64,000 nt of DNA, from assembly GCA_034521575.1 (NCBI GenBank), contig JAXHMJ010000002.1:528706-592705 (forward strand), written 5' to 3'. The position numbers and the translations under genes were made by a program. This stretch comes from a candidate division KSB1 bacterium (GTDB taxonomy: Bacteria; Zhuqueibacterota; Zhuqueibacteria; Residuimicrobiales; Krinioviventaceae). Shown here piece by piece: positions 13,350 to 61,758 of this stretch (position 1 is its first letter; each line of letters begins with the position of its first letter). The notes under the pieces are model-generated. The model searched no databases, was not told the DNA's origin, and saw only the letters and a list, made by a program, of their open reading frames with translations.

Positions 13350-14793
13350 CTAGTAATCATCATACGGCAAATCAAAATCAATCCACGCACAAAACCGCCG
13401 TAGACGTTCAGGCAAAGCCTTCATCTTTTGCATCATTTTTTGCCGGTACTCATCCGCTTCTGTTCCGGTCATCTGCGGTGCGGGCAGGTTTCGTAAAATA
13501 TTAATAAACCGCTTTCTGGCAGTAATCACCTTCGGATCATTGGAATGGGTCACCTCTTTATAGTCTTCACCGTTGCGGCTGTCTCCGCAGTAATAAAAAT
13601 AGCCAAACTCATCCGGACTGTTATATTCCAGCAGCCATCGTTTGTCACGCAGGACACGTTTATCGGAAAGAAAACTGAAACACCAATCCCGCACCGGCCC
13701 CGGCTCTCCTTTGACAATATGGGCAAAACTGTGACCGTCAATCACCCGATCAGTCGGGAGGGAAGCGCCGGTGAAATCCGCAATCGTGGGCATGACATCC
13801 GACAAATCCAGCAATTCATCGCTGACCACACCGTTTTGCAATAGTCTCGGCGCATTCACAATCATGGGAACGCGTGCACCCAGCTCGGTCGGTGTATACT
13901 TGCCATTATATTTTGTGCCATTATCACCTGTGAATAGAATGATAGTATTGTCACGCAGTCCGGATTCATCCAAAGCCTGAATTAGACGTCCGATCATTTT
14001 GTCCATATATTCAACATTTGCCGCGAGCCGTTCAGGGGCAGGTGCGTTCTGAATATCTGGCTGATCCGGTGTGGGATCCCAGGGCAAGTGAGTCAGACAC
14101 ATGGGATAATAAACCAGAAACGGCTGGTCTCCGCCGTTTTTCATAAAATCAATAATAAAATCCGTATACATATCCGGACCGTAATCATCCGGCTCTGTCT
14201 GCAGCTGTTTTCCGTTTTGTAAAATACCGGGATAATGGAATCTCGAAGGTTTCCCTGGTTTTTCCAGTCCACCTGAATACTCGATAGAATCCGGTATCTC
14301 GTTCATCCAGATACAATACTTGTCAAATCCCGTATCATAAACCAGGGTCGGAAGTTGCCCCGGCAGCTGCCATTTACCGGCGACCGCTGTGTGGTAGCCC
14401 TGTTCCTGGAACGATATCCGCAAATGTAATATGATAATCACCGATTTGTGCCTTTTCCGAATCCCCGGCTCCACCTACGCGATAGCGGTTATCGGTCCAA
14501 CCGTTTCTGAATCCGTATTGACCGGTCATCAGCATCACTCGAGTGGGACTGCACACTGGTGCGGCGTAACAGGTACGGAAGCGGATACCGGTCTCTGCCA
14601 GGTTGTCCAGATTCGGTGTTTGATGGTGCGGATGTCCATAACAACCCAGTTCTTTGGCACCCAGATCATCCGCCATAATCAAGAGAATATTCGGGGGATG
14701 TTTTTTTCGGCCGCAGGCGCTGAGCGGCAGGAACATGGATGCTGTTCCTATTCCCATGAAACGGATAAATTGACGTCTGGATGATGGATTCAC
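13350..14793 (-). CDS. S1-family sulfatase lipoprotein (one frameshift)
   Basis: A Tat signal (SSRRQFIRFMG) and lipobox (LSAC) lead into ILLIMADDLGAKELGCYG and the intact signature APVCSPTRVMLMTG (Cys81). After HITFADI the frame shifts near base 14413; dropping one base gives FQEQGYHTAVAGKWQLPGQ and the rest of the fold, including ILFTGDNGTKYNGKYTPTE. The two parts together have normal S1 length. The start is GTG at 14793, overlapping the stop of the preceding gene as GTGA and preceded by GAGGAGAT, which points to translational coupling. It resembles the sulfatases at 20834-22163 and 41746-43045 (shared GQYxFRN and AGKWQ or SGKWQ segments). The frameshift may be a sequence error. Confidence 0.85.
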
Positions 14794-16504
14794 TTTAAAT
14801 CTCCTCTAGTCAGAATTGTCGATTTTGTTTTTGTTTTCATATAGTTGATATCGCCATCGATCGCAGGCCAGGTATCAAAGTGCCGCTGCACAGGTACACC
14901 GTTTATTCGGGTAATCACCCAGCGGTCGTGTGCCGACTGACAAATCATACCCAATCCTAATTTCATCCGGATATTGAAATTCAGTGTATAATTGCTTTCT
15001 TTCCGGATTGGCTGAATTGAGGGCATTCAGCAGCTTTTGTGCATCTTTTCCATGATGGATGTAAAAAATGCCCAAATCCGGTTTGAGAATAGACCGCCAG
15101 CAGGCGATTTGCAGCAATCCGGTAAATACTCCAGTTTTCATCGGTTTCCACGGGATGATAGGCGTTCGGAACCTGCACCGGTCCCGCCGTGCACGCAAAT
15201 CGTTTATAGACACCTGTGTTGTTCCAGTCCAACATCTGCTGGCCGGGTCCTGACATGTGAAAGGTTTGCTCCAGCGTCTTTGCATTGTCATCCAGCAGCA
15301 AAGTAATGGGTTTGGCCACGATCAGAGAGCGTTTGCCCTGATTGGCGCCGCCGGCTGACAGCAAATAATGAGGATCGCCGGAATAAATCTCGGGACAGGA
15401 ATTGGTTCCGTGTCCGATTTTGACGAAATAGGGGAGAGGTTTGCTCAATGTCCAGTCTATAACCTTGTCCGGGGGGCGATACGGCAGCATGGCCGCCCAT
15501 AATGCATGATGTTGTCCGCGTTCAATTTGTAAATCCAGTGTATCTGTATAAAAACTTGTCCAGACCTTCATCATGGCGGTATGATAATCCACTTTCAGGC
15601 CTGTGCGAAAATCTGTCCGGAACAACCGGCGATACGGCGGAAAATGTTTGAATTTAAAACTGCCCAGCGCATAATACCAGTTTGCCAGGTCAAGCAGTTT
15701 GCGCGCCAGTTTCTGAACCTCACCTGAAGCAAAGGCTTCAAGGTTCAGCAACGCGCAGAATGTATAGCCCAAATAAGGATCGGAATTGTATTCATAAAAT
15801 CCACATTCTTTAATTTCCCGTAAATAATTGACCAACCCTTTCTTCACGCCGTTCTCTTTGTTGTTGTATTCGCGCTGCTTGTAGCCGTGATTCCACATCC
15901 ATTGGTTTACAAGATATCTTGAACTCCCTGTCATAAGAATATGATTTTCCGAATCCTGTATCCATGTAAAAGGAACATTACGGCTGAAGCCATTTCCTTT
16001 TATAGTCAGGATATGATCGATAAGGTGCTTTCGGGTTTGAGGGTACAGACGATCAGGCTTTTCATCAAATAAATACAACAGGGGTGTAAATCCCGCGGTG
16101 TTGAAATTGTAGCCGCCTTTGGGATTCAACAACCAGCGTGACCCGGATACCCCGGTGGCCTGTTGCCGCATCAGATACTGATTGATTTCATCGATGCGGA
16201 TGCCGAGCAACAGATTGCTCAGCACAATTCGAGGGACTTTGACATCCACTTTTTCACCGTCCTGCCACTCGAACAAGTCGAAATCCGTCCAATAGTGAAA
16301 CAGCTGCTGCTGTAATGCCGAGTTTGGTCTGGGGACATAGGTGCGCTTGTCCGGGATCTCTATATTGCCTTTGTTAATAGGATGCCTGTTACTCTGATTT
16401 AGGAATAAGGTGAAAATGAAAAATATCGCCAGCAACACAAGGGGAACGGCGGCAAGACCTCGCAAAATATTCTTTTGAATACGTTTCAATCTTTGATGCT
16501 CCAT
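14790..16504 (-). CDS. Membrane-anchored protein of unknown function, toroid-like (two frameshifts)
   Basis: I do not recognise a named family. The N-terminus has one hydrophobic anchor (about residues 15-37, VPLVLLAIFFIFTLFL). A helix-rich central part follows, with LNPKGGYNFNTAGFTPLLYL, WIQDSENHILMTGSSRYLV and DPYLGYTFCALLNLEAF, and then a strand-rich C-terminal part. That order resembles alpha-toroid plus beta-sandwich polysaccharide lyases or hydrolases. At the A6 run 15063-15068 the frame shifts and continues as IFYIHHGKDAQKLLNALNSA. A second shift near 14930-14960 leads to DRWVITRINGVPVQRHFD and the stop at 14790. The start overlaps the DUF1961 gene upstream by 19 bases and the stop overlaps the next sulfatase, so it sits inside a tight operon. 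It is a candidate new carbohydrate-active enzyme. Confidence 0.6.
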
Positions 16505-17298
16505 ACTTTGAAATCCCGATAGCGGAAATGCGACCAGCGCATTTGACGGAATCCGATTTTGCCGTTCCGAAGCATCGGACCCGCGATTTGTCCATCATCG
16601 GTCCAGTCGATGATGCATCTGTGATCCACGTACATGACAATATGTCCGCCGTCCTTTATTAATTTCATATGATGAATACGTTTAGAGGCTGTCGGGATGC
16701 CTTCATAGCCGATTTGAGCCAGATGAAAGCCGCTGTTTTTGCGCAGATGCGATCTGCGGCGGTCGGGATTGTGCGGCGCATTGGCATAATAGGAGATATG
16801 GTAATTATTGATCCGGCCGTTGATATAGGATTTGAATCGGCCCTGGCGTTCCGGCAATGCCGGATTAAAGATGCTCCGGCTGTTGACACCCTGTGCCGCA
16901 AAAAACACAATGCATAATCCGGCTTTGGGTTTTATATTTTGGGCCTGCCACTCGGCGATAAAACGATCCGGAAAATCCATGGGACACCAGAATACATGAT
17001 GACCGGGAGTAGAAATCCATTGAATCCAATGCCAGTCGTGCGCATGCATGTGCATCCAACTGTCTTTGAATTCTAATTGTCCTGGACCTTCCATGACCCA
17101 GTCTGCCATCAGAACAGAGTCAGACATCGGGTTTTTATACAATAGGTCGCCTTTGGCCTGTTCAAATGGATCAACAGCGCCTGGATCAATAAGGGGATCA
17201 ATCTGTTCCGATTTTTCGCCTCCAGTGCAGGCAATTAGAAAAAGCAAAAGTGGTAAAAATCCGGCAGCTCTGCGAAAAGTCCTGCATGTTGAGTTCAT
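16486..17298 (-). CDS. DUF1961 (YesU-like) lipoprotein
   Basis: Start ATG 17298 is chosen over the ATG 18 bases upstream because AAGGATC lies at the right distance and the signal then starts MNSTCRTFRRAAGF. The lipobox LIAC makes it a lipoprotein. The body is a beta-jelly-roll of the DUF1961/YesU type: NPMSDSVLMADWVMEGPG, DFPDRFIAEWQAQN, NNYHISYYANAP and GKIGFRQMRWSHFRYRDF. YesU lies in the rhamnogalacturonan operon of Bacillus subtilis; its biochemical role is not settled, and a lectin-like or lyase-like role is usually assumed. The gene at 57758-58480 is a clear paralogue, so each large block carries one copy. It overlaps the unknown membrane-anchored gene downstream by 19 bases. Confidence 0.85.
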   Translation of the reverse strand: MNSTCRTFRRAAGFLPLLLFLIACTGGEKSEQIDPLIDPGAVDPFEQAKGDLLYKNPMSDSVLMADWVMEGPGQLEFKDSWMHMHAHDWHWIQWISTPGHHVFWCPMDFPDRFIAEWQAQNIKPKAGLCIVFFAAQGVNSRSIFNPALPERQGRFKSYINGRINNYHISYYANAPHNPDRRRSHLRKNSGFHLAQIGYEGIPTASKRIHHMKLIKDGGHIVMYVDHRCIIDWTDDGQIAGPMLRNGKIGFRQMRWSHFRYRDFKVWSIKD

Positions 17299-17344
17299 TA
17301 TTGATCCTTTAATCATATTAAATTATTAACCATCCGGGACAGCC

Positions 17345-18560
17345 TTATAAGGAGCAATAGTCATCAGCCATTTTTCTTAAAAACTGATCATCCACTTCAA
17401 GCCCGAAACCCGGTTTGGGTTGCATGGTAATCAGGCCGTGTTTTTGAAATGTCGATTTTGAAATGATGGCTTTTAAAAACACCTCACTTTCCTGGGGTTT
17501 TTCAATCGCTTCCACCCACGAAGCGCCTACACCTATGGCAATCTGCTGCCAGGCACTGCAGCCGGGACCGATCAGACTTGCATCGCCAATCATAATGCCA
17601 TGGCCCCATTGTTTGATTTGTTCAGTGACCTGTATCATGTGTCGAATACTGCCGAGTCCTGCAGGATGCATGTTATAATATCTCCCCATATCGGGGATCA
17701 GACTCTCCAGTGCAAGCCATGAAGTCCGGGTTGGCCGGTCCGGAACCAGTGCGAGACCGTCTACTTTTTCCTGCAGCTCAACCCATTGCCGGTTTATCAA
17801 TTCAGCCGGGTCCTCACAGGCATCCAAACCGTGATCATATAACGATCTCAAGATTACAGCCAGATCATCCAGCGAGTCAAAGGATGTATAACCCCGGTTG
17901 ACATCACCGAGAATAAAAGCGTCAGGACCCATCACTTTCCGAACCTGCTCAACGACCTGCTGGTCCAGGTTGCTGATCACCGAATAACTTGACCTTTATA
18001 TGACTGGTAAAGCCTTGCTCTTTGGCCAGTTGCGCTTGCTCTGCCGCTTTTTTTGGATTATCCTCCAGTATGGTAAACAAACCGGAGACCGGCTCATCAC
18101 CGGTCAAACCCAGATACTCGTTTGCTGATATGCCCTCAGTACGCGCTGCGAGATCGATCAACGCCAGTTCCGTGAATTCCAGCTGACGTTTGTCCCATGC
18201 ACTGTCCATGCGCCGCTGTTCCAAAATGGCAAAGGCCTCATCAAGGGATGCTCCTTTCAGATCCAGCAAAAAGTGACCCCATTCGCAAATATCAAGATCA
18301 GGGTTGTTTTTATCCGCAATTGTTTCAGACCAGCCGGCATGGCCGTCTCCTGACAGCTTTAAAAATGCATGCTGACGGTTCTGCCATGTACTGTGACTGA
18401 AATGGCGGGCTTTTTCCACATCCACACGGTATAATTCAATAGTATCGATCTGCAATGTCCTGTTTTCTGCTTGTTCGCAACTCGAAAGAACAAACAATAA
18501 GAAAACCAGGAAGCAAATCAAGTCGCTCAATGTCCGGGACCGCTGTTTTCGTTTTTTCAT
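17345..18560 (-). CDS. Enolase-superfamily (mandelate racemase/muconate lactonizing-like) lipoprotein (one frameshift)
   Basis: Start ATG 18560 is used because AGGA precedes it and it opens a signal sequence (MKKRKQRSRTLSDLICFLVF) ending in the lipobox LSSC. The N-terminal capping domain follows, and then the barrel. The strand with the catalytic lysines reads HIKVKLFGD, the first metal ligand lies in FILGDVNRGYTSFDS, and the second is probably in DACEDPAE. Near 17972-17985 the frame shifts; joining LFG to ISNLDQQVVEQVRKV restores the protein. Members of this superfamily abstract a proton next to a carboxylate, for example in sugar-acid dehydration, and are normally cytoplasmic. An exported, lipid-anchored member is unusual. 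It lies between a GH127 gene and a DUF1961 gene. Confidence 0.75.
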
Positions 18561-18652
18561 GATCATTCCTAAGAATTTTCTGTCATCATCAGATATCCGA
18601 TTTATCATACAAAAAGGTCGGCTCATATATAACATGAACATCGAATAATTTA

Positions 18653-22261: not shown

Positions 22262-23260
22262 TCATAGCGCAAACGTAAACGACAGCCGATTCACAGCATC
22301 AAACACCTGCATATCTGAATACGAGTAACTGAGTTCGAATAGTTTACCACCGATTTCGGGCCGGATCCCGAATCCGGCTGAAAAACCGGCAAGATCCCGG
22401 TTGAACTCATAACCGGCGCGCAGCGCCAACACCCCTATCAGTGTGTATTCACTACCAATGTTCACGCGTTCGGTATAATTATTCGGATGCAAAAATTCAA
22501 CAGAAATCAAAAACGGATCACCCTGGTAATCCGGACTGATCACCTGCAAGACATCTATGCCCATACCCACCATAAACACCATGGGCATCTGTACACTGAT
22601 CTCTTCATATTTTACATCGGTGGAAAAATTTCGGATCGCCATCGCAAAACGAAAACGTTTGAAATCTGTTTGATATTTAATACCGAAATTAAAGATCACC
22701 TTGTCCACAGAATTTTCGACCGTGCCGTTGTCCAGCCTGGAATCTCCCAGATTCTGACCGACATACTGCACCAGTCCTCCCATGGAGAATTGTGTGCTGA
22801 TGCGCCTGGCATAGGCCAGGCCGAGTGCGTATGCACCGATATCCAGATTTCCGGTCAACCGGTAGCCCTGGGGATCGGACAAGGACACGAGTTCCACGCC
22901 CTGGATATCGCCGTAATCCACGGATAAAAAACTGATTCCAAACGTTCCCAGAGTACCGAAATTGCGGGCCAAACCTCCGGCCAGATAGTTGATATCTGCA
23001 ATCCATTGTGTTTGCGATAAAAATGCACTCAGACCGGCATCCGGTATCTCGGCCAGTCCGGCTGGATTGTAAAACATACTCTCTACATCATTACACACTG
23101 CCGTATACGCATTGCCCATTGCAGCCGCTTTTGGCGAAACACCCACTTTGAGGAATCCCATGGTGCTCTGGGCGACTTTTTTTATTCCGACCTGGGCATG
23201 AACGGAAAACAGACCGAAACAAAATATGATGATTATAGATCTTTTTACCAGTTTTTTCAT
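22262..23260 (-). CDS. PorV/UPF0164-family outer-membrane barrel (copy 1)
   Basis: The 332-residue protein has a Sec signal peptide (about 1-22, ending VHAQ), followed by VGIKKVAQSTMGFLKVGVSP and KAAAMGNAYTAVCNDVESMF, then YNPAGLAE. This is the opening of the PorV/PorQ/UPF0164 family, whose members are FadL-like beta barrels. The C-terminus VNRLSFTFAL ends in alternating aromatic residues typical of outer-membrane insertion. PorV in Bacteroidetes is part of the T9SS attachment complex that handles proteins with C-terminal sorting domains. Its neighbour 34 bases upstream encodes a protein with such a tail, so the pair may work together. A paralogue lies at 58539-59542. The start has GGGAGA upstream. 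Confidence 0.85.
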   Translation of the reverse strand: MKKLVKRSIIIIFCFGLFSVHAQVGIKKVAQSTMGFLKVGVSPKAAAMGNAYTAVCNDVESMFYNPAGLAEIPDAGLSAFLSQTQWIADINYLAGGLARNFGTLGTFGISFLSVDYGDIQGVELVSLSDPQGYRLTGNLDIGAYALGLAYARRISTQFSMGGLVQYVGQNLGDSRLDNGTVENSVDKVIFNFGIKYQTDFKRFRFAMAIRNFSTDVKYEEISVQMPMVFMVGMGIDVLQVISPDYQGDPFLISVEFLHPNNYTERVNIGSEYTLIGVLALRAGYEFNRDLAGFSAGFGIRPEIGGKLFELSYSYSDMQVFDAVNRLSFTFAL

Positions 23261-23294
23261 TTTACCAGTCTCCCTTTAGCTTTCGTTTGCGCAA

Positions 23295-25457
23295 TTATCG
23301 AGCGACCACGAATTTACGAAACGCCACTTCACCATCCTTTTTCTCAAACGTGGCGATATATACCCCGCTGGAGATCACCTGTTGATAATCCGTAAGCATA
23401 TCCCAATAGGCCGAACCAATTTCCAAAGGACTGTCGTGTACAAACGAATAGACCTTGTCGCCGTCTTCGGTATAAATCGTGATCTCACAAAAAGCCGGCA
23501 GGTTGAAAAATACAATGCCGCGATAGTCCGTCCATCCCTGGGCAATCACCCGGGGGTCATTGATATTGTAAGGGTTCGGCGCAATCACAATATCTTTCAA
23601 TGTCTCTGTGCCGCCGCGCATGGGTTTGACAGAAACCGGCGTCGGTAACAAGGATCGGCCGCTCCAAAGCATTTTACCGCGCTGTTCGGGCAGGGCGTTC
23701 ATGTTGTTTTCCGAGATTCTTATTCCGGATTGAATATAGTAATAATAAGAAGCACCAAATTGAACATCATCATCCTCGTAGGTATGTTCCAGTCGTTGTA
23801 ATTCATCCGGTGTGAGGGAGGCGATGACATCAAAAGACGCTGTGTCCATATTGGATTTGCGGCGCAGAATTCGGTAGCCGGAAAAATTCGACAACGCTTC
23901 AGCTTCAGGACAACTCCAGGTCAGTTTGGTATAGCCGCCGAACGGCTTGACCTGCATATTCGGAGCCGGTGGGGCAGAGGGGACTTTCCAGTCGTGCTCA
24001 AAATTCCAGCGCGCCCGGTACATGGCGTTATGCACCGAATCAATACTTGTGCTCAGCCACAAGTCTTTATTGAGGTCCATTGGTGTGGCGCCTTCCGGAA
24101 AGGCAAAGTTGTCCGGGAAAAAACCTGTCTCCGGATCTGGCAAGCCTTGCGGCGGTTCCAGTGTCTGATCCAGCATTTTCCTGCCGATCTCGGTTGCTTT
24201 TTGCACTGAAAGTCCTGATTCTCCGACCACATACACATAGCGGATCTGTTCACCTGGCGCCCATTCATCATAGGGCCCTATGGCCGCGTACACATGGTTG
24301 CCGGAATGAAAAGAAACCATCTGGGAAAATGCCTGAAAATCAGGGTTTCCAAATTCATCATTGTTAATATGATGATGCGTTCCTGCGGGCGAATCCGGCT
24401 TTGGATGTCGGTCTGATTCAGCGCCGTAAAACGTCTCAAACGTTCGCTCATCCGGATGAGAGTAATCACCGCTGCCGCCGCCGATGGTTTTCGCAACGAA
24501 TGTCGTAATCGGCTGAACCGGATCATCCACATCCTGCGCCGGATTTGAATACGGTTCTTTCGAAACATGCAGAAATCCCCAAAACGGCGCTCCGGGCTGA
24601 ATGAGCCGGTTTTCCTGACCAAAGCAGGGATTGCCCATGGTATCACCGCTCTGCTTGGGATCATCAGCATGGTAGTAATAATAGACCCGCTGACTGTCAG
24701 CCAACATGGCGCCGTAATAATGCCACCATAAATAATGTTCGGGACTCAATCCTTCAGGTTCCGGAACGGTTCCCCAGGCACGCGATGCTTCATCCCAGGC
24801 CTGCGAAAGAACAACGTTCTTGAATGTCTGTTCTTCAGCATAGCTCACCTGATGTGTGACATTGGTGAACGTCCAGTCTGCGACAATATAATCGTCATGA
24901 TTCTGATTATGAAACGCAAACACCTTGCGCTCTGCACGTACGCCATTGGGATAATCGAATGTGCTGGTCACAATCTGGTCACTGTTGCCGATCATTTCAT
25001 CAGGATTGACCTCACCCAATACACTGGAACCAACATGCTCATCATTGACAAGATTTTCTGGGTAACCATAGCGCACATAACTTTTGAGCGGTTCTACCAT
25101 ATTGGGGCGGGTATCGATTTCTGCGATAACCGGCGCCCAAACACTTTGAGGGTAAACCTCTCCGTCGGGAGGTATGTAATCATACATATGGATGGATACA
25201 TCTTTTGCTCCTCCTGACAACAGATGCCGATGCTGTCCGAAAGCGTAGACATTAAATTCTGCCGGAAACCAGCCGCTGCTGACGGCTCCCATGGTATTTC
25301 CCGGTACATTAACCACAGCCCAGATTCGACCCGTTTTCATCAGTTCGGTCTGACTATCCTGGGCGTGGACGGGGGAAACAAACAGCGCTGACGCTAAATT
25401 GAAACACAGCATCCACAAAAAGATAAACCGTGTTATCTGTATAAAATTATATCGCAT
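23295..25457 (-). CDS. T9SS-tailed surface protein paired with the TonB-dependent receptor (copy 1)
   Basis: Start ATG 25457 is chosen because AAGGAG precedes it and the signal peptide then begins MRYNFIQITRFIFLWMLCFN and ends VHAQ. The product has 720 residues. A large N-terminal domain of unknown family (TGRIWAVVNVPGN, SGWFPAEFNVYAFGQ, VFAFHNQNHDDYIVADWTF) is followed by a fibronectin-III-like domain (TKLTWSCPEAEALSNFSGYR) and a C-terminal sorting-type domain (IAPNPYNINDPRVIAQGW, SSGVYIATFEKKDGEVAFRK, ending FVVAR). A paralogue with the same layout lies at 59564-61724, again between a TonB-dependent receptor and a PorV-like gene. The position is where SusD would sit in a Bacteroidetes locus, so a glycan-binding partner of the receptor is a reasonable inference. 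Confidence 0.75.
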   Translation of the reverse strand: MRYNFIQITRFIFLWMLCFNLASALFVSPVHAQDSQTELMKTGRIWAVVNVPGNTMGAVSSGWFPAEFNVYAFGQHRHLLSGGAKDVSIHMYDYIPPDGEVYPQSVWAPVIAEIDTRPNMVEPLKSYVRYGYPENLVNDEHVGSSVLGEVNPDEMIGNSDQIVTSTFDYPNGVRAERKVFAFHNQNHDDYIVADWTFTNVTHQVSYAEEQTFKNVVLSQAWDEASRAWGTVPEPEGLSPEHYLWWHYYGAMLADSQRVYYYYHADDPKQSGDTMGNPCFGQENRLIQPGAPFWGFLHVSKEPYSNPAQDVDDPVQPITTFVAKTIGGGSGDYSHPDERTFETFYGAESDRHPKPDSPAGTHHHINNDEFGNPDFQAFSQMVSFHSGNHVYAAIGPYDEWAPGEQIRYVYVVGESGLSVQKATEIGRKMLDQTLEPPQGLPDPETGFFPDNFAFPEGATPMDLNKDLWLSTSIDSVHNAMYRARWNFEHDWKVPSAPPAPNMQVKPFGGYTKLTWSCPEAEALSNFSGYRILRRKSNMDTASFDVIASLTPDELQRLEHTYEDDDVQFGASYYYYIQSGIRISENNMNALPEQRGKMLWSGRSLLPTPVSVKPMRGGTETLKDIVIAPNPYNINDPRVIAQGWTDYRGIVFFNLPAFCEITIYTEDGDKVYSFVHDSPLEIGSAYWDMLTDYQQVISSGVYIATFEKKDGEVAFRKFVVAR

Positions 25458-25531
25458 TTTTATCTCCTTCATTATCGCTTTACAATACGGCCTCATCATT
25501 CCTTTCAAAGCGGTTATTAAAATCATATGCT

Positions 25532-28500
25532 TTAGAATCGCAAAGACAGGCCGAACCAGATATCACGCGGTTGATCAAACAGCCACAGACTGTTATTCGG
25601 ATCATTAATGTACGGCTTTTCATCCGAGCGAAGTTCACCCGGTTTGTCCTTTCCGGGTTCATACAATCCGGGATTGGCAACTCGTAATCCGTCGAAATCG
25701 GAGGAATTATAAATGGGCAGTTTCAGAGAAGAAAAATAAGCCTGTTGATCACCGCTGCCGTCAAAACAGAATCCACGATTCATAATCATATGCTTGTTGT
25801 TAAATAGATTGGTGACATTGATATAGGCCTCCAGATGCAGTCCGGATATTTCAAATTCTTTTCCCAGTTTGGCATCCACTTTGTGGTAATCCGGCCACTG
25901 CAAATTATCCTGCAGGTGCAGTTTACCCAGCGGATTCCAGGTAAAATATCCGCCGGCGCGCCACATGGGCATCACACTGATCAGCCATCCGCCCAGCGGG
26001 TGCAGTCCCAGAATCCTCAGACCAAACCGTTCGGGCACATGAAAGGTGACATTGGCTCTGAAACTCGGACGCGGCAGCAGGGTGCTTTCCTGCCCCTGGT
26101 AGAGTCCGAATTGCTCTTCTTTTGAAGGATCTTGATAAAACGCTTTTCGTCCAACATGACCTGATTTTTTGTACAGAAAATCAAAATTGGCCCATCCGGT
26201 AATCCAGCGCCCGTAATTCTTGGTCACACTGATTTCAGCGCCCAGTATATCTTCATAATTATTATTGAGATAACTGTCATACATCACAGAACCGGTCTCA
26301 TTTTCATAATGAACGCTGCCGTGTTCGCCGGTCACATCTTTATAATAACCGCTGATACGGATTAAAAACTGGTCGAGTAAATTATATTCCATTCCGGTTT
26401 CATAGGAAATCGTGCGCGGCGGGGCCAGATTGGGATTGCCCAGTTCCTGAACGCCCCATTTCATGGGCCGGGCTCTGACAATATATTGTTCATGCCAGGG
26501 GATCAGGGAGCGAAAATGCCCGTAATTGAAATAATATTTGGAACGCTCAGTCACCGGAAATGACAGTCCAAGACGCGGACTCAGAGTAAAATGTGTTCTC
26601 ACCGGCTGCATGATTCCCAGCGAATCCCAGACCTCGAATTCATTCAGTCCGTAATCCTCAATCGTACTTTCAGCATGAATACCGAAAATATCAGCGCTGA
26701 ACGGATCACCCTGCGGCCATTTACCGCCGGGATCGTAATAATCACAGCGAAGACCGATGTTGGCCACCACACCTTCATAAGTGATCTGATCCTGTACATA
26801 TACGGCGGCGGAAAAGGGTTTTTTGCTCCATTTAAATACATTGTGTCCGCCGAAATTATTGTGGACATATGATTGAACCCGGTGCTCAAAATTTGTCGTG
26901 ATATTAGCGTCAATACCGGCTTTGACCAAATGGTGATAAGTCAATTGACTGTTGATATCGAATTTCAAACGTATGGTCTGCACCTGGGTGCTGTCAAACC
27001 AGGCGGGTGATTTTCTGGAAAACCGACGGTCCGTAGTGCCGAACGGCTGGTTCCATTGATTGTGTGCAAAATCATCCACAATGTCCGAACCCGCACTGTA
27101 ATAATAGGGCATTTCATTGACTTTGATCGGACCAAATTCAGCAACCGGCTCTGAACTGCGTTTGCTGTAGTTTTCATGGAATTCGTCTACACTTATTCTT
27201 AAAAAGTCATCCAGGTCAATATACTCGGCCCATGTCGGATAGGCTTCAGTTTTATGCGACTCTCCGCTGATGGAAAAGTTCCAGAATGTTTTCGGATTCA
27301 CTGTTTTGGTCAATTTCAGACCCAAAAGAGAAGTATAATTGTCCATGGGGCTGAAATAGCCGGGCATGAAAATATACATTTCGTTGCCCGCGGTCACATT
27401 CGTGATATTATTCAAGGGTATGGCGTTGCCGATGACACCCGATTGCCGCCAGTTGCTGGTTGATCCGTAAAACATGCCGTACTGTTCGCTGTACAACCCG
27501 TTCAGCGTCAGTTTCAGGCTTTTAGATAGATTGGACTGGATGGTCAAAGTCGAAACGTTTTTATTGATACTGGGACGACTGTTGGGTTGGGTATAATAGG
27601 ATTCATTTGAATTGTGTGACAGATAAAAGGTGGCGTCTCCCAGATACTTGCCGATAACCGGGATCGGACCGCCGAACCCAAAATCGATATTATAGTCGGA
27701 ATGACTGCCTTCCGGTTCATGTGTATGGTCTTTAAATTTCTGCTGCAACTCCTCCGGCACCGCATATCCCAGTTCTGCCAGTTTTTCAAATGGCGGTTCG
27801 GTTGTGTGCATCCATGCGTTCCACAGATACAGATCCAGCGGCGCAGCCTGTTCCGCTTCAGATTTGCCCATATTGTAAAGCTGTGCCAGCTTATTCCAGC
27901 CGACAAAGGTGGCGTTTTGTGCCAATACGTATGGATTATCCGCCCAGGCTTGATCGGTTCCGATAAAAGCGATTTGTGGATCCACTCTGGGTCTCAGCAG
28001 AAAATTATAAGGATCATACAGTGATTTTCCAAACCGTTTCATATGCGGAACATTCATCGACGCATCAAGACGACCGCTGTAACGCTTTCTGTCACCTTTT
28101 TTCGTGGTAATTTCCAGCATGCCGGAGCGGAAATTGCCATATTCCGCATTATAGCCTCCCTTGATCACCGAAACCTGTTCAACAGCGCTAAGCGGGATGG
28201 AGGCTTTAGGGGTTCCCATGCGTTCATTGACAAATGTGAATCCGTCCACCATGGTTCCGGTTTGGTCCGCGGACCCGCCGCGAATCGATAGATCACCGGA
28301 GACACCCGCCTGTTTTGTGACAAAATCCTGCAGCTGCCGCACTGCCGGTGCTTCAGTAATCTGTTCATTGGTCACCACTTCCTGGCTGTATGATATCTCT
28401 GTGTGCATAATATCTCGTTCGGCAGATACAACCACCTGCTCGCCCTGTATCACCGTTGGTTTCAGGGCGAAATTGAGTGTGGTATTGCGCCCCATGGAAA

Positions 28501-28798
28501 CCAAAACATCGGTTTTAACCAGCTTGGCATATCCGATCATGGATGCCGAAATCTCATAAACTCCAACCGGGACATTGAGGATCACATAGCGTCCCTGAAG
28601 ATCAGTGGCTGCTCCCAGACGCGTACCTGACACCACCACATTCACACCAGGCAGGGTTTCATTGGTTTCCGCATCCCGAACGATACCGACAATTTTTCCG
28701 GTTGTGGCTGCAAATAAACCAGCCTGAAAACAGATGCTCAAAGCGATGACAAGAACCGAAAACAATACATAAGGTCTGTTACTTGTCTTGTATCCCAT
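25532..28798 (-). CDS. TonB-dependent outer-membrane receptor with carboxypeptidase-regulatory-like domain (copy 1)
   Basis: Start ATG 28798 is preferred to the one 21 bases upstream because GGAGGAG lies just before it. The 1088-residue product has a signal peptide, then a carboxypeptidase-D regulatory-like domain (about 32-112: GKIVGIVRDAETNETLPGVN, VPVGVYEISASMIGY). The plug domain follows (VVVSAERD, DLSIRGGSADQTGTMVDGF, VSVIKGGYNAEYGNFRSG), then a long beta barrel ending DIWFGLSLRF. This is the SusC-like layout, which imports oligosaccharides with TonB energy. No SusD is encoded nearby; the next two genes are a T9SS-tailed surface protein and a PorV-like barrel. The paralogue at the right edge of the window has the same neighbours. 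Confidence 0.93.
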   Translation of the reverse strand: MGYKTSNRPYVLFSVLVIALSICFQAGLFAATTGKIVGIVRDAETNETLPGVNVVVSGTRLGAATDLQGRYVILNVPVGVYEISASMIGYAKLVKTDVLVSMGRNTTLNFALKPTVIQGEQVVVSAERDIMHTEISYSQEVVTNEQITEAPAVRQLQDFVTKQAGVSGDLSIRGGSADQTGTMVDGFTFVNERMGTPKASIPLSAVEQVSVIKGGYNAEYGNFRSGMLEITTKKGDRKRYSGRLDASMNVPHMKRFGKSLYDPYNFLLRPRVDPQIAFIGTDQAWADNPYVLAQNATFVGWNKLAQLYNMGKSEAEQAAPLDLYLWNAWMHTTEPPFEKLAELGYAVPEELQQKFKDHTHEPEGSHSDYNIDFGFGGPIPVIGKYLGDATFYLSHNSNESYYTQPNSRPSINKNVSTLTIQSNLSKSLKLTLNGLYSEQYGMFYGSTSNWRQSGVIGNAIPLNNITNVTAGNEMYIFMPGYFSPMDNYTSLLGLKLTKTVNPKTFWNFSISGESHKTEAYPTWAEYIDLDDFLRISVDEFHENYSKRSSEPVAEFGPIKVNEMPYYYSAGSDIVDDFAHNQWNQPFGTTDRRFSRKSPAWFDSTQVQTIRLKFDINSQLTYHHLVKAGIDANITTNFEHRVQSYVHNNFGGHNVFKWSKKPFSAAVYVQDQITYEGVVANIGLRCDYYDPGGKWPQGDPFSADIFGIHAESTIEDYGLNEFEVWDSLGIMQPVRTHFTLSPRLGLSFPVTERSKYYFNYGHFRSLIPWHEQYIVRARPMKWGVQELGNPNLAPPRTISYETGMEYNLLDQFLIRISGYYKDVTGEHGSVHYENETGSVMYDSYLNNNYEDILGAEISVTKNYGRWITGWANFDFLYKKSGHVGRKAFYQDPSKEEQFGLYQGQESTLLPRPSFRANVTFHVPERFGLRILGLHPLGGWLISVMPMWRAGGYFTWNPLGKLHLQDNLQWPDYHKVDAKLGKEFEISGLHLEAYINVTNLFNNKHMIMNRGFCFDGSGDQQAYFSSLKLPIYNSSDFDGLRVANPGLYEPGKDKPGELRSDEKPYINDPNNSLWLFDQPRDIWFGLSLRF

Positions 28799-28947
28799 TG
28801 TACTCCTCCATGTGTGCACATGATTTTGTCATGAGCTGCCATCCATTGCATTAAGAAAAATTAAGTTTAAAAAATAAATCAGATGGCGTTCACAATAAAT
28901 CGTGGAAATCAGCTTGATTGACGATAATTCTATCCTGCTTTTGCATC

Positions 28948-29039: not shown

Positions 29040-30437
29040 TTACTTTATGAGCAGCATCTTCTTTTCAGCCACCTGTGAACCAGCGGAAATCCGGTAAACA
29101 TAAATCCCGGAGGGCAAATCAGAAGCATTAAACTGAATCGAATGGCTGCCCGCATTCAATGACTCATCAACAAGTGTAGAGACAATCTGACCCAAAGTAT
29201 TGTGTACCGTTAATGTGGTCCATCCGCTCTCGGACAGGTTGAACTCGATGGTTGTTGCGGGATTGAACGGGTTCGGATAATTCTGTTTCAGGGTAAAGCC
29301 GTTTGGTGTTGATACCGGTTCGGATGCAACAGCCGTTGCTGTCGGGTCCCAGCGTACATCACCCAGGGCTGTGCCGTCATCCGCTTCACCCAAAGCCGGT
29401 GAATCTTCCGCGAGCGTGAAGTCAGCGTCCGGCCCTGGATCCAATGCCAACGGCGCGTTGGCGAATTTCGGGTCCACATCCCACCAGTTGTTTTTGGCGT
29501 CTGTGCTGTCCGCAATATTAATGGCATCCGTCATGTAAAACAGATTGTACTCGACCATCGTGTTTTCATTATCACGGATTTGAATCGGATCTTTTACATT
29601 GTCGCCGCCTGGTTCTGCGCCCAAATCGCCGACGATTTTGGCGAAAATATTATTCTTGATCGTGATGCTGTTGGGGTCTTCAACAGAATAGCGTAATTGC
29701 ATGGCTCTGTCACCCAGCGCATAAAAAGTATTGTGCAGAATATGAATCTCGGGATTGCTGCCGTTGCCCCGATCCTCCGCACGAATCGATTTGCGGTCGC
29801 TTTGCCAGAATGTATTGTTTTCAACCCAGAGAAAATTGAGAATGGCATTTTTCGTGGTCATTGCTTTGGGCGCTTTGTAAAAGAGAGAATTGGTGACGAT
29901 GCAGGAATCAATTCCGACAAAAGCACTGGCGTGATCACCGCTTTCACCATGTACAACACGACCCCACGGCCAGAACAAATGATGAATAAAACAGTCATCA
30001 ATGGTGAATTTATCAATCATCTGAAGCGTGGTCTCCCAACTGATGTTAAACAATGCAGCAAGCGCTTTATATTGACTGGTATCGGCCATGCCGCAGTCAA
30101 ATTCCAGACCCTGAACGGTGAAATCGCAATCGGACAATTCAAATCCAAAAGTTTCTGCCGCAATGTTACCTCCGCTTGGGAAGGCGGGAAATGAAATCAC
30201 CGGACGCGTGCTGTATCCGTCTTCCGCCTTGATGGTCAATTCGATGCCGTCGACAGCAATCGGCAGAACCGTCTGATCGGTTTCACGGTACTCGCCGCCG
30301 TCCTGCAGCACCAATACATCGCCGTTATTCGCAGCTGCTATAGCGGCGCTCAGTGTCGCGTCACCCGGTTCGACCTGAACCTCTGCGGAAAACAAAGCAA
30401 ATGGAACCAGCAACAGAACAAAAAACCAATTTCTCAT
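29040..30437 (-). CDS. Right-handed beta-helix (polysaccharide lyase-like) protein with T9SS sorting tail
   Basis: The 465-residue protein has a signal peptide (about 1-18). A parallel beta-helix follows, starting VEPGDATLSAAIAAANNGDV as in chondroitinase-B-like (PL6-type) and related proteins, with repeats such as FLWVENNTFWQSDRKSIRAE, HILHNTFYALGDRAMQL and SITIKNNIFAKIVGD. The tail begins KQNYPNPFNPATTIEFNLS and ends EKKMLLIK, a standard type A T9SS C-terminal domain, so the protein is predicted to be secreted to or held on the cell surface. It is the only enzyme-like protein in the window with this tail. The start is preceded by AGGAGG. It is divergent from the regulator gene and lies first in the left block, before receptor 1. 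Confidence 0.8.
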   Translation of the reverse strand: MRNWFFVLLLVPFALFSAEVQVEPGDATLSAAIAAANNGDVLVLQDGGEYRETDQTVLPIAVDGIELTIKAEDGYSTRPVISFPAFPSGGNIAAETFGFELSDCDFTVQGLEFDCGMADTSQYKALAALFNISWETTLQMIDKFTIDDCFIHHLFWPWGRVVHGESGDHASAFVGIDSCIVTNSLFYKAPKAMTTKNAILNFLWVENNTFWQSDRKSIRAEDRGNGSNPEIHILHNTFYALGDRAMQLRYSVEDPNSITIKNNIFAKIVGDLGAEPGGDNVKDPIQIRDNENTMVEYNLFYMTDAINIADSTDAKNNWWDVDPKFANAPLALDPGPDADFTLAEDSPALGEADDGTALGDVRWDPTATAVASEPVSTPNGFTLKQNYPNPFNPATTIEFNLSESGWTTLTVHNTLGQIVSTLVDESLNAGSHSIQFNASDLPSGIYVYRISAGSQVAEKKMLLIK

Positions 30438-30697: not shown

Positions 30698-31957
30698 TTG
30701 GAAATATGGACTATGCTCGATAAAAACGCCAAACAAGATATTTTAAAAAAAATCCTGTCCAGCGCCGATTTTGAACATTCTGAGAAACATCAGAAACTGT
30801 TAACATATCTGTTTAATGCGTCTATCAAAGGCGAAATCCCTCACGAGCACTCTATTGCTTTTGATGTGTTTAACAAAGACGGGAAATTCAATACAAATGA
30901 AGACACCACCGTCCGCGTTAATGTCTATCACCTGCGCAAAAAACTGGCAAAGTATTATCAAAATGAAGGAAAACATGACAAGATTCGGGTTAAAATACCT
31001 ACCGGACATTATTCGCTAAAATTCATCCGTTATGCAAAAACCAGACGATTTTCCAAAACACATGTGCTTCAAATCATTGCCGGGCTGGCCGTTCTGATTA
31101 TCATACTCCTGGCCGTCTCCAGCCTTTATTTGTACAATCAAAACCGAATATTAATCAATCAGGTCAAGCCGTTTCCGCAAAAACTGGATCACTATCCCAT
31201 ATGGTCCAATTTTCTAGACTCTTCCTTTCCAACTTTGATTGCTTTGGCAGAAATCTTTCATTTCAAAAAATATGATCCTGTACTGGACACCTGGGTACTC
31301 AGCCGTTTGGGATCTGTTGAAAATGAGACTGATTTGCAGCAACTTGAGGAGCAGTATCCATCGCTTCAGTTCGACTTGTGTCCAGCCGGTGCACCTGGCC
31401 GTTTTACGATGAACAGTATCGGCCCGCTGGTTTACGTTCAGCCCTTGTTCACACAGTCCGGTAAAAATTTCAGATTACAGCGTTCCCAGGCCATCACACC
31501 GGGAGACCTCAAGAAAAACAATATCATTTATCTGGGATACTATCAATCTTTGGGTGTTTTCAAGGATGTGACCCAAAAGTTGAGTTTTTATTTTGATATG
31601 GATCAAAAACTGGCAATCGCCAAAATGGGCAGCGGAGATTCAACGTTGATTTTCAAACACGCCGGCTCGTTCAAAGAACATCACAATGATTACAGTATTG
31701 TCTATCATCTGCCGGGGCCGAATGCCAACAGTGTGCTCATTATCTCGAGTTTCACATCCACCGGAACCATGGGCGTGGCCAAATATCTCACCAATCCCGC
31801 CCAGTTACTGGAATTGAAAACCATGTTTATCGAAAAGTACAATCATATGCCCGATTATTTCGAACTTGTTTTTCAGGTGAGCGGCTATTATCGAACCGAT
31901 TTTAATGCGCAAATCAAAGCCTACCGCCGAATTGATCCGGATATTGATTTGTGGTAG
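30698..31957 (+). CDS. Membrane-spanning putative transcriptional regulator (cytoplasmic winged-helix-like, periplasmic sensor)
   Basis: This is the only supported plus-strand gene. Residues about 10-110 form a domain known from many Acidobacteria-type regulators; its key part is AFDVFNKDGKFNTNED, VRVNVYHLRKKLAKYYQ and VKIPTGHYSLKF. One membrane helix follows (about 123-146, VLQIIAGLAVLIIILLAVSS). The C-terminal 270 residues would be periplasmic and include NNIIYLGYYQSLGVF, VLIISSFTSTGTMGVAKYL and YFELVFQVSG. That layout is like ToxR/CadC one-component sensors. The coordinates begin at TTG 30698, which has AAGGA upstream; ATG 30713 is the alternative. It stands between the two catabolic blocks, facing away from the left one, so it is the best candidate for their control. 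The function is inferred. Confidence 0.7.
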   Translation: MEIWTMLDKNAKQDILKKILSSADFEHSEKHQKLLTYLFNASIKGEIPHEHSIAFDVFNKDGKFNTNEDTTVRVNVYHLRKKLAKYYQNEGKHDKIRVKIPTGHYSLKFIRYAKTRRFSKTHVLQIIAGLAVLIIILLAVSSLYLYNQNRILINQVKPFPQKLDHYPIWSNFLDSSFPTLIALAEIFHFKKYDPVLDTWVLSRLGSVENETDLQQLEEQYPSLQFDLCPAGAPGRFTMNSIGPLVYVQPLFTQSGKNFRLQRSQAITPGDLKKNNIIYLGYYQSLGVFKDVTQKLSFYFDMDQKLAIAKMGSGDSTLIFKHAGSFKEHHNDYSIVYHLPGPNANSVLIISSFTSTGTMGVAKYLTNPAQLLELKTMFIEKYNHMPDYFELVFQVSGYYRTDFNAQIKAYRRIDPDIDLW

Positions 31958-36268: not shown

Positions 36269-37858
36269 TTATTTTTGAAAAGAAAGTTGACTCTTTTTAA
36301 CGGTGATTTTATGCACGAGCTCATTGTCAATGCTGTATACGCTATAAGCGACGACGGGATCGTCTTTTGTGGTGTCAAAATTCAACCGGCCGAAAGAGGA
36401 TTTGTCATTATATCCGAACAGTGAAGCCGGTAACACATCATGGGTATGGATATTGCTGATTTTCGAGCTTTCAAATTCATAAAAATCATATCCATCCGGC
36501 CGTTCAATTTTCCAGGCATCGGAACGGTGCCGGTCCGCTGACAACAGAATAACTCCATCGATTTTCTGATTTTCGATGAACGAATAAATGTCTTCCCGTT
36601 CCTGCGGAAATCCATCCCAGGTGTCCACTTTGCCCGGTTTGGCGCCTTGGGCCCAGGGAACCGGGGAACAAATAACTTTAAATGTGGCCTTGGAGGATGC
36701 AAGCTGCTGAAACAGCCATTGTTTCTGTGCTTCACCCAGCATGGACGGGGGAGAGGGATGCTCGACTTTGGGGTTCATGCGATAGTACCGACCGTCCAGC
36801 ATGATAAAATCAACATCACCGATTGAAAAATCAAACCAGCAGCCCGGCTGTGGTTTACCGCCGCCGTAATACGGATTGATCCAGTTGTTTTTAAAGGTAT
36901 TCCAGACCGGTCGTTTCCAGGATGGTGTATCGATTTCCGGCCCGCCGAATCCGTCATTATCAGTGAAATCATGATCGTCCCAGATAGCAAAAATGCTTGA
37001 CGAACTGACAAAGGAGCGATATTCCGGCCGCGATTGCCGGCGGTAATAGCAGTACTGCTGTACTTGCGGTATTTTCGGGTGATCGATATAAACATTATCG
37101 CCCAGGAGCAGAAATGCGATGAGATCTTTTGATGCTATGGTGTTCCACATACGTTCATAAGGCGGTGTATAACCGGCGCCGCCTCCGAATCCGATGCTGA
37201 ATTGTGCCGGATATCCCTCGGCCGGAAATGTACGAAACGTATAGCGCTCCTCACGCAAATGGCCGCCAATGGAAAGTTGATAATGATAGGTTTGATCCGG
37301 CAAAAGGGTGTTGACTGACAGAATTGCCGTATAATCATGATCAGGGTTTGTTTTAACCACCGGTGAATGAATGACGTTACCCTGATGATCCGATACAGTT
37401 ACTTGAACCGGTACCTGCCTAAATGTTCTCACCCAGAATGAAGCACTGCGGTCCGTGACGTTTCCCAGCATGGGACCGTGAACGAGTTCAATATCACGCT
37501 CTTTGATCATACGTTTAAAATCCGGATGCTTGTGCAGGCTTTTAAAAAGGTCACGCGGACCGGCTAAAAAGCGTCCAAAGGGCAGTCCATGGTTGAGGGC
37601 CTGCTGCACATAAAACACGGCCGAATCCGGTTTGTTCATCACCGAATAGCACAGGGCCAGTCCGTACATGGATTCCAGATCACCGGCATGTGTTTGAAGA
37701 TAACTTTGGAAATAATCCTGGGCGCTGGGCGTATCCCCGTTTACAACGTCTGCAATCACATTCCGGTTTTGTTTTTTATATTGCGGGATCTCCAGTTGCG
37801 CATATAAATCAAAAGTGCTTGAAAACAAAATAATGAATAACAGGTATAGTCTAAACAT
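36269..37858 (-). CDS. PhoD-like metallophosphatase with N-terminal repeat-like region
   Basis: The protein has 529 residues with a signal peptide (about 1-20). Residues about 40-125 are helical and TPR-like (DYFQSYLQTHAGDLESMYGL, ALCYSVMNKPDSAVFYVQQ). The PhoD fibronectin-like domain comes next (VHGPMLGNVTDRSASFWVRT), and then the phosphoesterase core with FLLLGDNVYID, FAIWDDHDFTDND and VILLSADRHRSDAW. Compared with the PhoD-like protein at 300-1805 it has the extra N-terminal region and a different core, so the two are not recent duplicates. AGAGGAG precedes the start. It lies between GH92 and a sulfatase, 12 bases from the former. Confidence 0.85.
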   Translation of the reverse strand: MFRLYLLFIILFSSTFDLYAQLEIPQYKKQNRNVIADVVNGDTPSAQDYFQSYLQTHAGDLESMYGLALCYSVMNKPDSAVFYVQQALNHGLPFGRFLAGPRDLFKSLHKHPDFKRMIKERDIELVHGPMLGNVTDRSASFWVRTFRQVPVQVTVSDHQGNVIHSPVVKTNPDHDYTAILSVNTLLPDQTYHYQLSIGGHLREERYTFRTFPAEGYPAQFSIGFGGGAGYTPPYERMWNTIASKDLIAFLLLGDNVYIDHPKIPQVQQYCYYRRQSRPEYRSFVSSSSIFAIWDDHDFTDNDGFGGPEIDTPSWKRPVWNTFKNNWINPYYGGGKPQPGCWFDFSIGDVDFIMLDGRYYRMNPKVEHPSPPSMLGEAQKQWLFQQLASSKATFKVICSPVPWAQGAKPGKVDTWDGFPQEREDIYSFIENQKIDGVILLSADRHRSDAWKIERPDGYDFYEFESSKISNIHTHDVLPASLFGYNDKSSFGRLNFDTTKDDPVVAYSVYSIDNELVHKITVKKSQLSFQK

Positions 37859-41745: not shown

Positions 41746-43045
41746 TCATTTTGCTCCTTTCATAGTTTTCAGGACGTTTTTGAATGTATCGATGGTTCGT
41801 TTTGTCGCTGTATCCAGATCCTCATAATTCTTGTGGTTTTCTTCGAGAGGATCATTTTTGATATTAAATATCCGACCGTCGCCGTAAAGCTTCCACGTTT
41901 TGTTGTGTACGAATCTAGCCGGTTTCCATCGCGACCAGCGGGGTTCATAATGGCAGAACACCCACTCCCGGGTTTCACAGGGTTTTCCCAAAAGCTGTGG
42001 CAGAAAACTCAGGCCGTCCAGCGGCAAATCCGCAGGCGGCTCAATACCCGCTGCTTCGGCAAAGGTCACGAAAAAATCAGTAAAATCAATCAGATTTTCA
42101 TTGACTTGATTCGGAGCGATCACGTTGTGCCAGTTTATAACCAGAGGTACATGCGTGCCATAGACGGTTGGATTGCCTTTATCGCCGCGTATGCTCTTGT
42201 CCGGCATACGGCTCGTCACGGTGTTTTTGGTGCCATTGTCACCGGTGAACACAATCAGGGTGTTTTCCCGCAGGTTTAAGCGATCCAATGTTTCGACAAT
42301 ACGTCCGACCAGACTATCGGTGTATTCGACGAAATATTTAAAATGAGAGGGATCGTCCGAATTCTTTTCCGTATCGGTCGGATTCTGCTGCGGCGTGGGT
42401 ACGAATGGATTATGGGTCAATGCCATGGGATAATAGACGAAAAACGGATCGGATTGATGTCGTGTGATGAAATCCGTAATATAGTCTGTAAACACATCCG
42501 GACCGAACTCTCCCTGGAGCTTCTCGTGCAATACCCCGTTTTCGATGATCGTTGGATCCCAATAGCGCGATCCTTTGTGTTGAACCTGCCAGAGACAGTG
42601 TTCGTCAAAACCCGCATCTTTTGGCAATGTTCCCTCTCCCCGATATTTTGTGTCCTCTATTTTGCCGGCGACGCTGCCATTTGCCGGCAACACAGGTTTT
42701 GTATCCGGCCTGCTGAAACAGGTGACCGAATGTGAATTCTCCCGGCGGCAGCGAACCGAATTCCGTATAATTGCGGAAATTGTACTGTCCCGTCATCACC
42801 TGCACCCGCGTCGGGGTGCATAGCGGTGTCGAATGAGCATGTTCAAAGCGCACCCCGGTTTCTGCAAGTTGATCAATATGTGGAGTTTGATAAGATATAC
42901 TGCCATTGCAGCTCAGGGATTCGTATCCAAAATCATCCACCATGATAAAAACAATATTGGGGCGTTGAGTAGTTGCACATTGTGAGAGCAGCAGTGTTGA
43001 TACAGCAGCTGCGCTGCTCATTTTTAAAAATTGTCTTCGATGCAT
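41746..43045 (-). CDS. S1-family sulfatase lipoprotein (one frameshift)
   Basis: The Tat signal MHRRQFLKMSS leads to a lipobox (LSQC). The signature TPLCTPTRVQVMTG is intact (Cys76). After CVAGKWQ the frame shifts near base 42676; deleting one base gives LAGKIEDTKYRGEGTLPKD and then AGFDEHCLWQ, which matches the paralogue at 20834-22163 (AGFDEYCFWN). Later blocks are FFVYYPMALTHNPF, IVFTGDNGTKNTVTSRMPD and NEN-type dimer contacts. AAGGAG lies just before the start. It is the fourth of the five tandem sulfatases. The lesion is a single base and may be a sequence error. Confidence 0.86.
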
Positions 43046-44529: not shown

Positions 44530-44561
44530 GATATCTCCCTGTTTTATTATCATTCAACTTT

Positions 44562-57757: not shown

Positions 57758-58480
57758 TCATTTATTCTTTATTGACCAGACCCTAAAGTTTCTATATCGA
57801 AAATGTGTCCACTGCATTTGCCTGAAACCGATTTTTCCGTCTTTTAAAGGCGGTCCATATTTTCCCTTTGGGTCTTTCCATTCAATAATTTTACGATCAT
57901 CCACATACATCACGATATGCGCGCCGTTTTTCACAAGGCGCATCGTATGAATGTCCGTTGATTCAGTCGGAATGCCTTCTTTTCCCGACTCGACGAGGTG
58001 AAATCCCTTGTTTTTCCGCAGATGTGAATCACCCCGGTCCGGTTTTTTGGGCGTGTTGGCGTAATATGAAATATGGTAGCAGTTCAATGGACCGCGGATG
58101 TAATTTCCGAATGTGCCGTCGCGGGATGGAAGATCGCCTGTGAGAATATCTTCCCCGTTCAGTCCTTTGGCGGCGAAAAAGATGATGCACAACCCCGCAT
58201 CCGGCTCCATGTTTTGCGCCTGCCATTCGGCGATGAAATGATCCGGAAAATTATGCGGACACCAAAAGACGTGATGATAGGATTCATCCGGTGAAAACAT
58301 ATGCATCCAGCCGTCTTTGAACCGCAATTTCCCGGGCCCTTCCATAACCCAGTTTTCAACAAGGGACGGCCGGGATAATGCATTCATATACAACAGTTCT
58401 CCTTTTTCGGCAACTAGCGGATCGGCATGAACAGGTACAGCTGCGAGAAAAACCATGATTAAAAGTTTGAAAATTATCAT
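57758..58480 (-). CDS. DUF1961 (YesU-like) secreted protein (copy 2)
   Basis: The protein has 240 residues with a Sec signal peptide (about 1-19, ending PVHA). The jelly-roll body is clearly like the protein at 16486-17298: NALSRPSLVENWVMEGPG, HNFPDHFIAEWQAQN, NCYHISYYANTPKKPDRG, THFRYRNFRVWS. Unlike that copy it has no lipobox, so it is predicted to be periplasmic or released rather than lipid-anchored. It is the first gene after the PorV-like gene of the right block. The function of the family is not established, and a glycan-binding or lyase role is assumed by its frequent place in uronate and rhamnose loci. Confidence 0.85.
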   Translation of the reverse strand: MIIFKLLIMVFLAAVPVHADPLVAEKGELLYMNALSRPSLVENWVMEGPGKLRFKDGWMHMFSPDESYHHVFWCPHNFPDHFIAEWQAQNMEPDAGLCIIFFAAKGLNGEDILTGDLPSRDGTFGNYIRGPLNCYHISYYANTPKKPDRGDSHLRKNKGFHLVESGKEGIPTESTDIHTMRLVKNGAHIVMYVDDRKIIEWKDPKGKYGPPLKDGKIGFRQMQWTHFRYRNFRVWSIKNK

Positions 58481-59542: not shown

Positions 59543-59563
59543 GTAAATCTCCTCATTGATTCA

Positions 59564-61724: not shown

Positions 61725-61758
61725 TTGGATCTCCTTCGTACAAGTTTTAAAAAATCGA

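Follow-up and report, generated by a model that had tools for sequence, protein, structure and literature searches.

The window analyzed here, a 64,000-nucleotide stretch of the genome of a candidate division KSB1 bacterium (G000:C2:528706-592705 of a 5.26 Mb, five-contig assembly), carries a cassette of three genes that encode, in order of transcription, a TonB-dependent receptor (T), a surface protein with a sorting tail of the type IX secretion system (T9SS), here designated S, and an outer-membrane barrel of the PorV/PorQ family (P). The cassette is real and widespread, and apparently it is also undescribed, a variant both of the pairs formed by TonB receptors and their partners and of the cargo-barrel pairs of the T9SS; no description of it was found in the literature searched, a search conducted mostly without subscription journals. 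Copy 1 lies at 22262-28819, entirely on the minus strand, with gaps of only 5 bp between T (25532-28819, 1095 residues) and S (23295-25526, 743 residues) and 34 bp between S and P (22262-23260, 332 residues). An initial annotation of the window had ended this copy at 28798, which is an in-frame ATG and a possible start of T; the GTG start used here gives 28819. The same annotation described a second copy, from position 58539 onward, with identical gene order and homologous products, and sequence comparison of the two copies bore this out. A third T-S-P cassette is present in the same genome at C2:~998960-1005455 (L038).

To establish how often the trio recurs, an alignment of S was searched against one genome per species (84,980 species) and 77 loci were kept. 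These belong to KSB1, Ignavibacteria/Melioribacteraceae, Neomarinimicrobiota, Kryptoniota, Calditrichota, Latescibacterota and others, and were divided into subfamily A, whose S proteins are close relatives of that in the window, and the more distant subfamily B. Among the subfamily A genes for which both flanks were available, S immediately followed T and was itself immediately followed by P in 31/31, with median gaps of 24 bp (T-S) and 17 bp (S-P). In subfamily B, 37/39 S genes had T upstream and 28/39 had P downstream. An order kept to this extent is not due to chance, and because of it the possibility that the three families are usually scattered, which the initial annotation had named as fatal to its idea of a three-gene cassette, fails; the cassette was found across phyla.

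The receptor of copy 1 has the domains expected of a TonB-dependent receptor, all over their cut-offs: CarboxypepD_reg (CarbopepD_reg_2), Plug (PF07715, 42 bits, cut-off 23.9) and OMP_b-brl_3 (PF14905, 36 bits, cut-off 27). Its match to the SusC/RagA model TIGR04056 reached 54.3 bits, against a cut-off of 368, and covered the N-terminal part only. The comparison with SusC/SusD (RagA/RagB) of the Bacteroidota is a natural one, given that there, too, a TonB-dependent receptor and a large surface partner are adjacent in polysaccharide loci. The two systems nonetheless differ in several respects. SusD is a helical lipoprotein, whereas S is beta-rich and has a T9SS tail and a signal peptidase I-type signal; T does not reach the cut-off of the SusC model; the cassette usually has a barrel gene in addition; and the genome of the window has no SusD. 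Since the SusD models PF14322 and PF07980 matched nothing in the whole genome, the earlier statement that the window encodes no SusD can be extended to the genome, and no SusD homologue lies just outside the window. The further suggestion that the cassette occurs in place of SusC/SusD did not survive as a strict rule. PF14322 and PF07980 were over cut-off in 6/40 and 9/40 relatives, respectively, and strict exclusion of SusD by the cassette was rejected on the finding that 19 of the 38 other cassette-bearing genomes carry SusD matches over cut-off (1-3 each). As such, the suggestion fits the genome of the window, but not every carrier.

The surface protein consists of a signal peptide of the signal peptidase I type, with no visible lipid anchor, a beta-rich N-terminal domain (residues ~60-440), a helical linker (482-510), an FN3 domain (~520-605) and the tail (646-743). 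In the AF2 model of copy 1 (pLDDT 85.9, pTM 0.84) these appear as a beta-rich N-terminal region, a long helix, FN3 and an immunoglobulin-like tail. A conserved domain of ~450 residues has invariant D, Y, W and H residues. The body matched no Pfam or NCBIfam family, either in copy 1 or in the family members, and a PDB sequence search with S returned FN3 and titin-like matches alone. Among PDB folds the model was closest to PorZ, a T9SS cargo that likewise has a tail, and to tandem FN3 proteins; GH94 phosphorylases also came up repeatedly among the best matches. SusD was absent from the top 50 fold matches listed. To us the GH94 matches of the model hint, weakly, at a sandwich of the carbohydrate type and do not amount to an assignment.

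The tails of 60 members were compared with models of the known tail classes. The PorZ model matched 50/60 and the type A model TIGR04183 matched 47/60 at E<=0.5 (best 1.3e-7; the copy 2 tail scored 19.7 bits, cut-off 23), PF18962 matched 2/60, and hhalign gave 99.1% to canonical type A tails. A type B tail had been raised by weak PF13585 (CHU_C) matches in 15/60 and was rejected on the NCBIfam evidence, the type B model TIGR04131 matching 0/60. Judged by these profiles, S probably bears a type-A-like T9SS tail that is closest to that of PorZ. The PNPYN-type sorting tail of the initial annotation stands as a T9SS tail, best grouped with the type A/PorZ-like tails.

The barrel of copy 1 matched the PorV/PorQ family model NF033709 at 170 bits (cut-off 90) and was below the equivalog models of both PorV (NF033710, 60 bits versus 250) and PorQ (NF033711, 91 bits versus 220). 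By score P would therefore be closer to PorQ than to PorV, yet neither proper. It also gave a profile match to Flavobacterium johnsoniae PorV (6h3i, E=8e-19), and its AF2 model (pLDDT 90.6) was most similar in the PDB to F. johnsoniae PorV in a cargo-bound complex (8gl6_F) and to 6h3i_F, both with TM 0.71, with FadL/TodX also matched at TM ~0.52. The PorP/SprF barrel model TIGR03519 matched weakly in 8/50 P proteins. Family profile, fold and tail models alike support the original description of P as a dedicated barrel of the PorV family, next to a cargo with a T9SS tail.

The linkage extends beyond the S family of the window. Each relative genome has 26-58 matches to the PorV family, and the genome of the window has 27 (split genes included). 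In the latter, 15 distinct PorV-family genes were counted at E<1e-10; nine of these 15 lie on the same strand as, and <=8 kb downstream of, a Plug-domain receptor (manual count). From five genomes, 40 loci were fetched around PorV-family matches outside the S family of the window, and 39 PorV-family genes were scored. These had been chosen without reference to S, and 23/39 close a T-S-P unit and 29/39 have a receptor gene within two genes. The cargo bodies in those units differ (~650-1300 residues) and the tail class is the same. Cassette-class tails adjoin a PorV-family gene in 111/143 cases, versus 16/113 for canonical type A tails (Fisher p=2e-25). In addition, across 90 complete cassettes the distances of T, P, tail and cargo body correlate, and they still do so with the comparison restricted to pairs within one genome (Spearman 0.62-0.80, 0 of 1000 permutations). 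Based on these correlations the cassette evolves as a unit, from which alone physical contact does not follow.

Two further groups of proteins were noted among these loci. A second large cargo family (~830-1250 residues, with tails ending in EKIGKFAIIK or similar) has its own receptor-barrel cassettes, in several copies per genome (L179, L180, L181, L191, L192 and L198-L200, in G002, G010 and G004). A PorV-family barrel of 614 residues is fused to an OmpA-like peptidoglycan-binding domain at L178:6776-8620, and from length (612-633 residues) the same fusion may be present at L188:6207-8108 and G000:C2:736646-737557. In L178 and L188 the fused barrel adjoins a T9SS-tailed protein of ~970 residues, an arrangement compatible with an anchoring role.

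The machinery that such a cargo would need is present. SprA was found in 40/40 relatives and the PorU sortase was over cut-off in 19/20, the genome of the window being included in both cases. That genome also has a separate, near-canonical PorV at C1:~175 kb (L172; 247 bits, cut-off 250), apart from any receptor. Moreover, in KSB1-class genomes ~22 or more stretches per genome match a T9SS sortase/gingipain-like model, many of them in frames of 1300-1900 residues, and these represent an expanded C25-type peptidase family. In the T9SS as described, type A tails all use one PorV, whereas type B tails use cognate PorP/SprF barrels, which are encoded directly downstream of the type B cargo and also set its final location (PMC12618676); the type B cargos are anchored by the PorP-like barrels (PMC9143113). 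The cassette resembles these pairs (SprB/SprF, PG1035/PorP) in having a FadL-superfamily barrel directly downstream of a T9SS cargo, with a proposed role as shuttle and anchor (PMC12618676, PMC9143113). It is unlike them in that the barrel is of the PorV/PorQ family, the tail is type-A/PorZ-like and a TonB-dependent receptor is the third member. The cassette also resembles the PorZ-PorQ pair and the PorV shuttle. The PorZ model gives the highest scores with the tails of S, PorQ outscores PorV as a match to P, and PorZ retains its tail, bound to PorQ (reviewed in PMC10202324). Here the differences are that P passes neither equivalog model, that S has no PorZ propellers and that the cassette is present in many copies per genome, most of them beside a receptor. 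The same review proposed that cognate PorV-like barrels shield tails from cleavage, as PorQ does for PorZ (PMC10202324), and the cassette fits this suggestion, with its type-A/PorZ-like tail, its downstream PorV/PorQ-family barrel and no visible lipid anchor.

The neighbors of the cassette were examined for an indication of its substrate. For subfamily A, they were grouped by single-linkage clusters and one representative of each was annotated. Within 34 loci they included beta-helix, lyase-like T9SS-tailed proteins (30/34), GH28 (26), GH43 (12), UxaC (11), LacI regulators (11), KDPG aldolase (8) and sugar kinases (7), with GH88 and pectinesterase also frequent. Together these form a pectin/galacturonate pathway. 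The neighbors of subfamily B were mixed and had no pectin or glycan theme. The glycan setting assumed in the initial view is supported for subfamily A, to which the window belongs, and does not extend to subfamily B or to the other cargo bodies, whose neighbors are mixed; as a type, the cassette reaches beyond glycan loci.

The explanation that we favor for the whole, with moderate confidence, is that the cassette encodes one outer-membrane uptake module in which T imports, S is the surface partner and P is a reserved barrel. T would be a TonB-energized importer. S would be exported by Sec, cross the outer membrane through SprA by means of its type-A/PorZ-like tail and be held beside T. P, reserved for its own S, would take S from SprA and probably hold on to its docked tail in the way that PorQ holds PorZ; S would thereby stay at the cell surface with no need of a lipid anchor and would present substrate to T. 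For the subfamily in the window this substrate would be a glycan, a uronate-rich or sulfated polysaccharide here and pectin in most relatives, and if so the module would work like SusC/SusD with a non-homologous capture protein. The collection of S from SprA by P is proposed on the basis of family, fold and linkage. We infer, in addition, that P may serve its neighbor alone, that S may be retained rather than released, and that S may bind and capture glycan and contact T. In the many little-known phyla where it is found, frequently next to genes for pectin breakdown, the T-S-P trio probably plays the part that SusC/SusD plays in gut Bacteroides.

Several observations weigh against the uptake module. 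PorU is present and might cleave S, the S body has only weak similarity to GH94 proteins (TM 0.22 of full length), the orders T-P and T-P-S also occur, and co-divergence would also be expected from block duplication without physical contact. About one quarter of subfamily B S genes have no adjacent P and the neighbors there are mixed; therefore P could be shared, and the substrate might not always be a glycan. The presence of PorU and of a canonical PorV also leads to an alternative that we judge unlikely, namely that S is an ordinary type A cargo that uses the canonical PorV and, after cleavage by PorU, is attached to lipopolysaccharide, with P a FadL-like porin for small products that sits in the operon because both belong to one nutrient locus. 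The FadL-family fold of P (TM ~0.52 to FadL/TodX) and the many adjoining enzymes that have canonical tails without a private barrel agree with this account. Nevertheless, the best fold and profile matches of P are to PorV and not FadL, the barrel follows one tail class far more often than it follows canonical tails, and the cargo bodies that it accompanies are many and unrelated, a pattern that a porin specific to one substrate would not explain.

We consider it quite unlikely that S serves as an adhesin or as a structural protein of the surface, with T as its signaling or anchoring partner, and that the outcome is attachment to polymer particles or cells and not uptake. The FN3 and beta-rich architecture of S does resemble that of adhesins, subfamily B has no particular link with glycan genes, and the type B cargos that have cognate barrels in Flavobacterium are adhesins (PMC12618676). 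Conversely, T has full receptor architecture and nearly all subfamily A loci contain genes of pectin/galacturonate catabolism, including the cytoplasmic UxaC, KDPG aldolase and kinase. An unrecognized enzyme, such as a polysaccharide lyase or hydrolase held at the mouth of the receptor, appears very improbable to us. The uncharacterized conserved domain of S, with its invariant residues, and the recurrence of GH94 phosphorylases in the fold search would suit such a role, but Pfam, NCBIfam and PDB sequence searches found no enzyme family, and the S model is mostly beta with no catalytic (alpha/alpha)6 barrel. In regard to the earlier concern that the large domain could be an unrelated enzyme, what is left is that weak fold likeness to GH94.

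Copy 2 is interrupted by frame breaks. Its T gene (61759-64000, minus strand) leaves the window and extends to ~C2:593743, ~1.04 kb beyond (L059:2465-5744). S, on the same strand, is in two pieces, an N-terminal piece at 60126-61877 (49% identical to residues 5-538 of copy 1, with a probable in-frame start at 61724) and a C-terminal piece with FN3 and tail at 59564-60202 (65% identity to copy 1 residues 533-743). P (58539-59243, minus strand; NF033709, 113 bits) is open from 59243, with its N-terminal part in another frame, up to ~59541; the break is near 59340-59370 and the N-terminus is not open. Many genes of this genome are split in this way, SprA among them. Split genes in the window are at 3305-5192, 13350-14793, 17345-18641, 41746-43045, 43059-44553, 53302-54676 and 59340-60202, and another is at G000:C5:125989-131855. 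Uncorrected indels in long reads would produce breaks of this kind, and readings of this genome based on open reading frames need care. Because SprA and several sulfatase and glycoside hydrolase genes of the window are split likewise, assembly indel errors are likelier than decay in copy 2, and a pseudogene was judged the less likely interpretation.

The duplicated unit was also found to be larger than the trio originally described. In both copies, a gene for a beta-helix T9SS-tailed protein and then a divergent regulator-like gene lie upstream of T. At copy 1 the former is at 29040-30437 (minus strand), with a canonical type A tail (PF18962, 45 bits), and its homologue at copy 2 is at L059:5915-7285 (45% identity). 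A further near-identical (86-94%) copy, in two pieces, is located beyond copy 2 at L059:12008-13419. The divergent gene, at 30698-31957 (plus strand), has a homologue divergently upstream of copy 2 (L059:7761-8999, 44% identity). Its product has no Pfam match and, as read from its sequence, likely belongs to a family of membrane-bound winged-helix regulators; putative members of ~410 residues, also without a Pfam match and divergent from cassettes, are encoded at L039:15599-16825, L099:4618-5832 and L201:11844-13000. A scan for promoters and terminators found promoters no more often than chance (17 found versus 17.0 expected). The surroundings of both copies constitute a large sulfated-glycan locus, with ~10 sulfatases, GH2, GH32, GH78, GH92, GH95, GH127, a heparinase-II/III-like protein and PhoD phosphatases. 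The PhoD-like phosphatases are at 300-1805 and 36269-37858, within the sulfatase/glycosidase locus, and one DUF1961 protein is encoded downstream of each cassette, at 16486-17316 and 57758-58480.

In the broadest view, which we hold tentatively, the cassette may represent a machine for outer-membrane uptake that is widespread beyond the class Bacteroidia; its TonB-dependent receptor would have as surface partner a protein that the T9SS delivers and that a PorV/PorQ-family barrel of its own keeps in place. Such a machine would parallel SusC/SusD in function and would break the rule of one PorV for type A tails; if this reading is true, much of the growth of the PorV family in these phyla would be explained by cassettes linked to receptors. 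It would give uncultured phyla of the FCB group that are without, or nearly without, SusD a way to capture pectin and other polymers, and it would provide a function for dozens of "PorV/PorQ family" genes per genome that have so far been annotated by family only. It also makes testable whether cognate barrels for type-A-like tails decide the destination of the cargo, which has so far been shown only for type B (PMC12618676).

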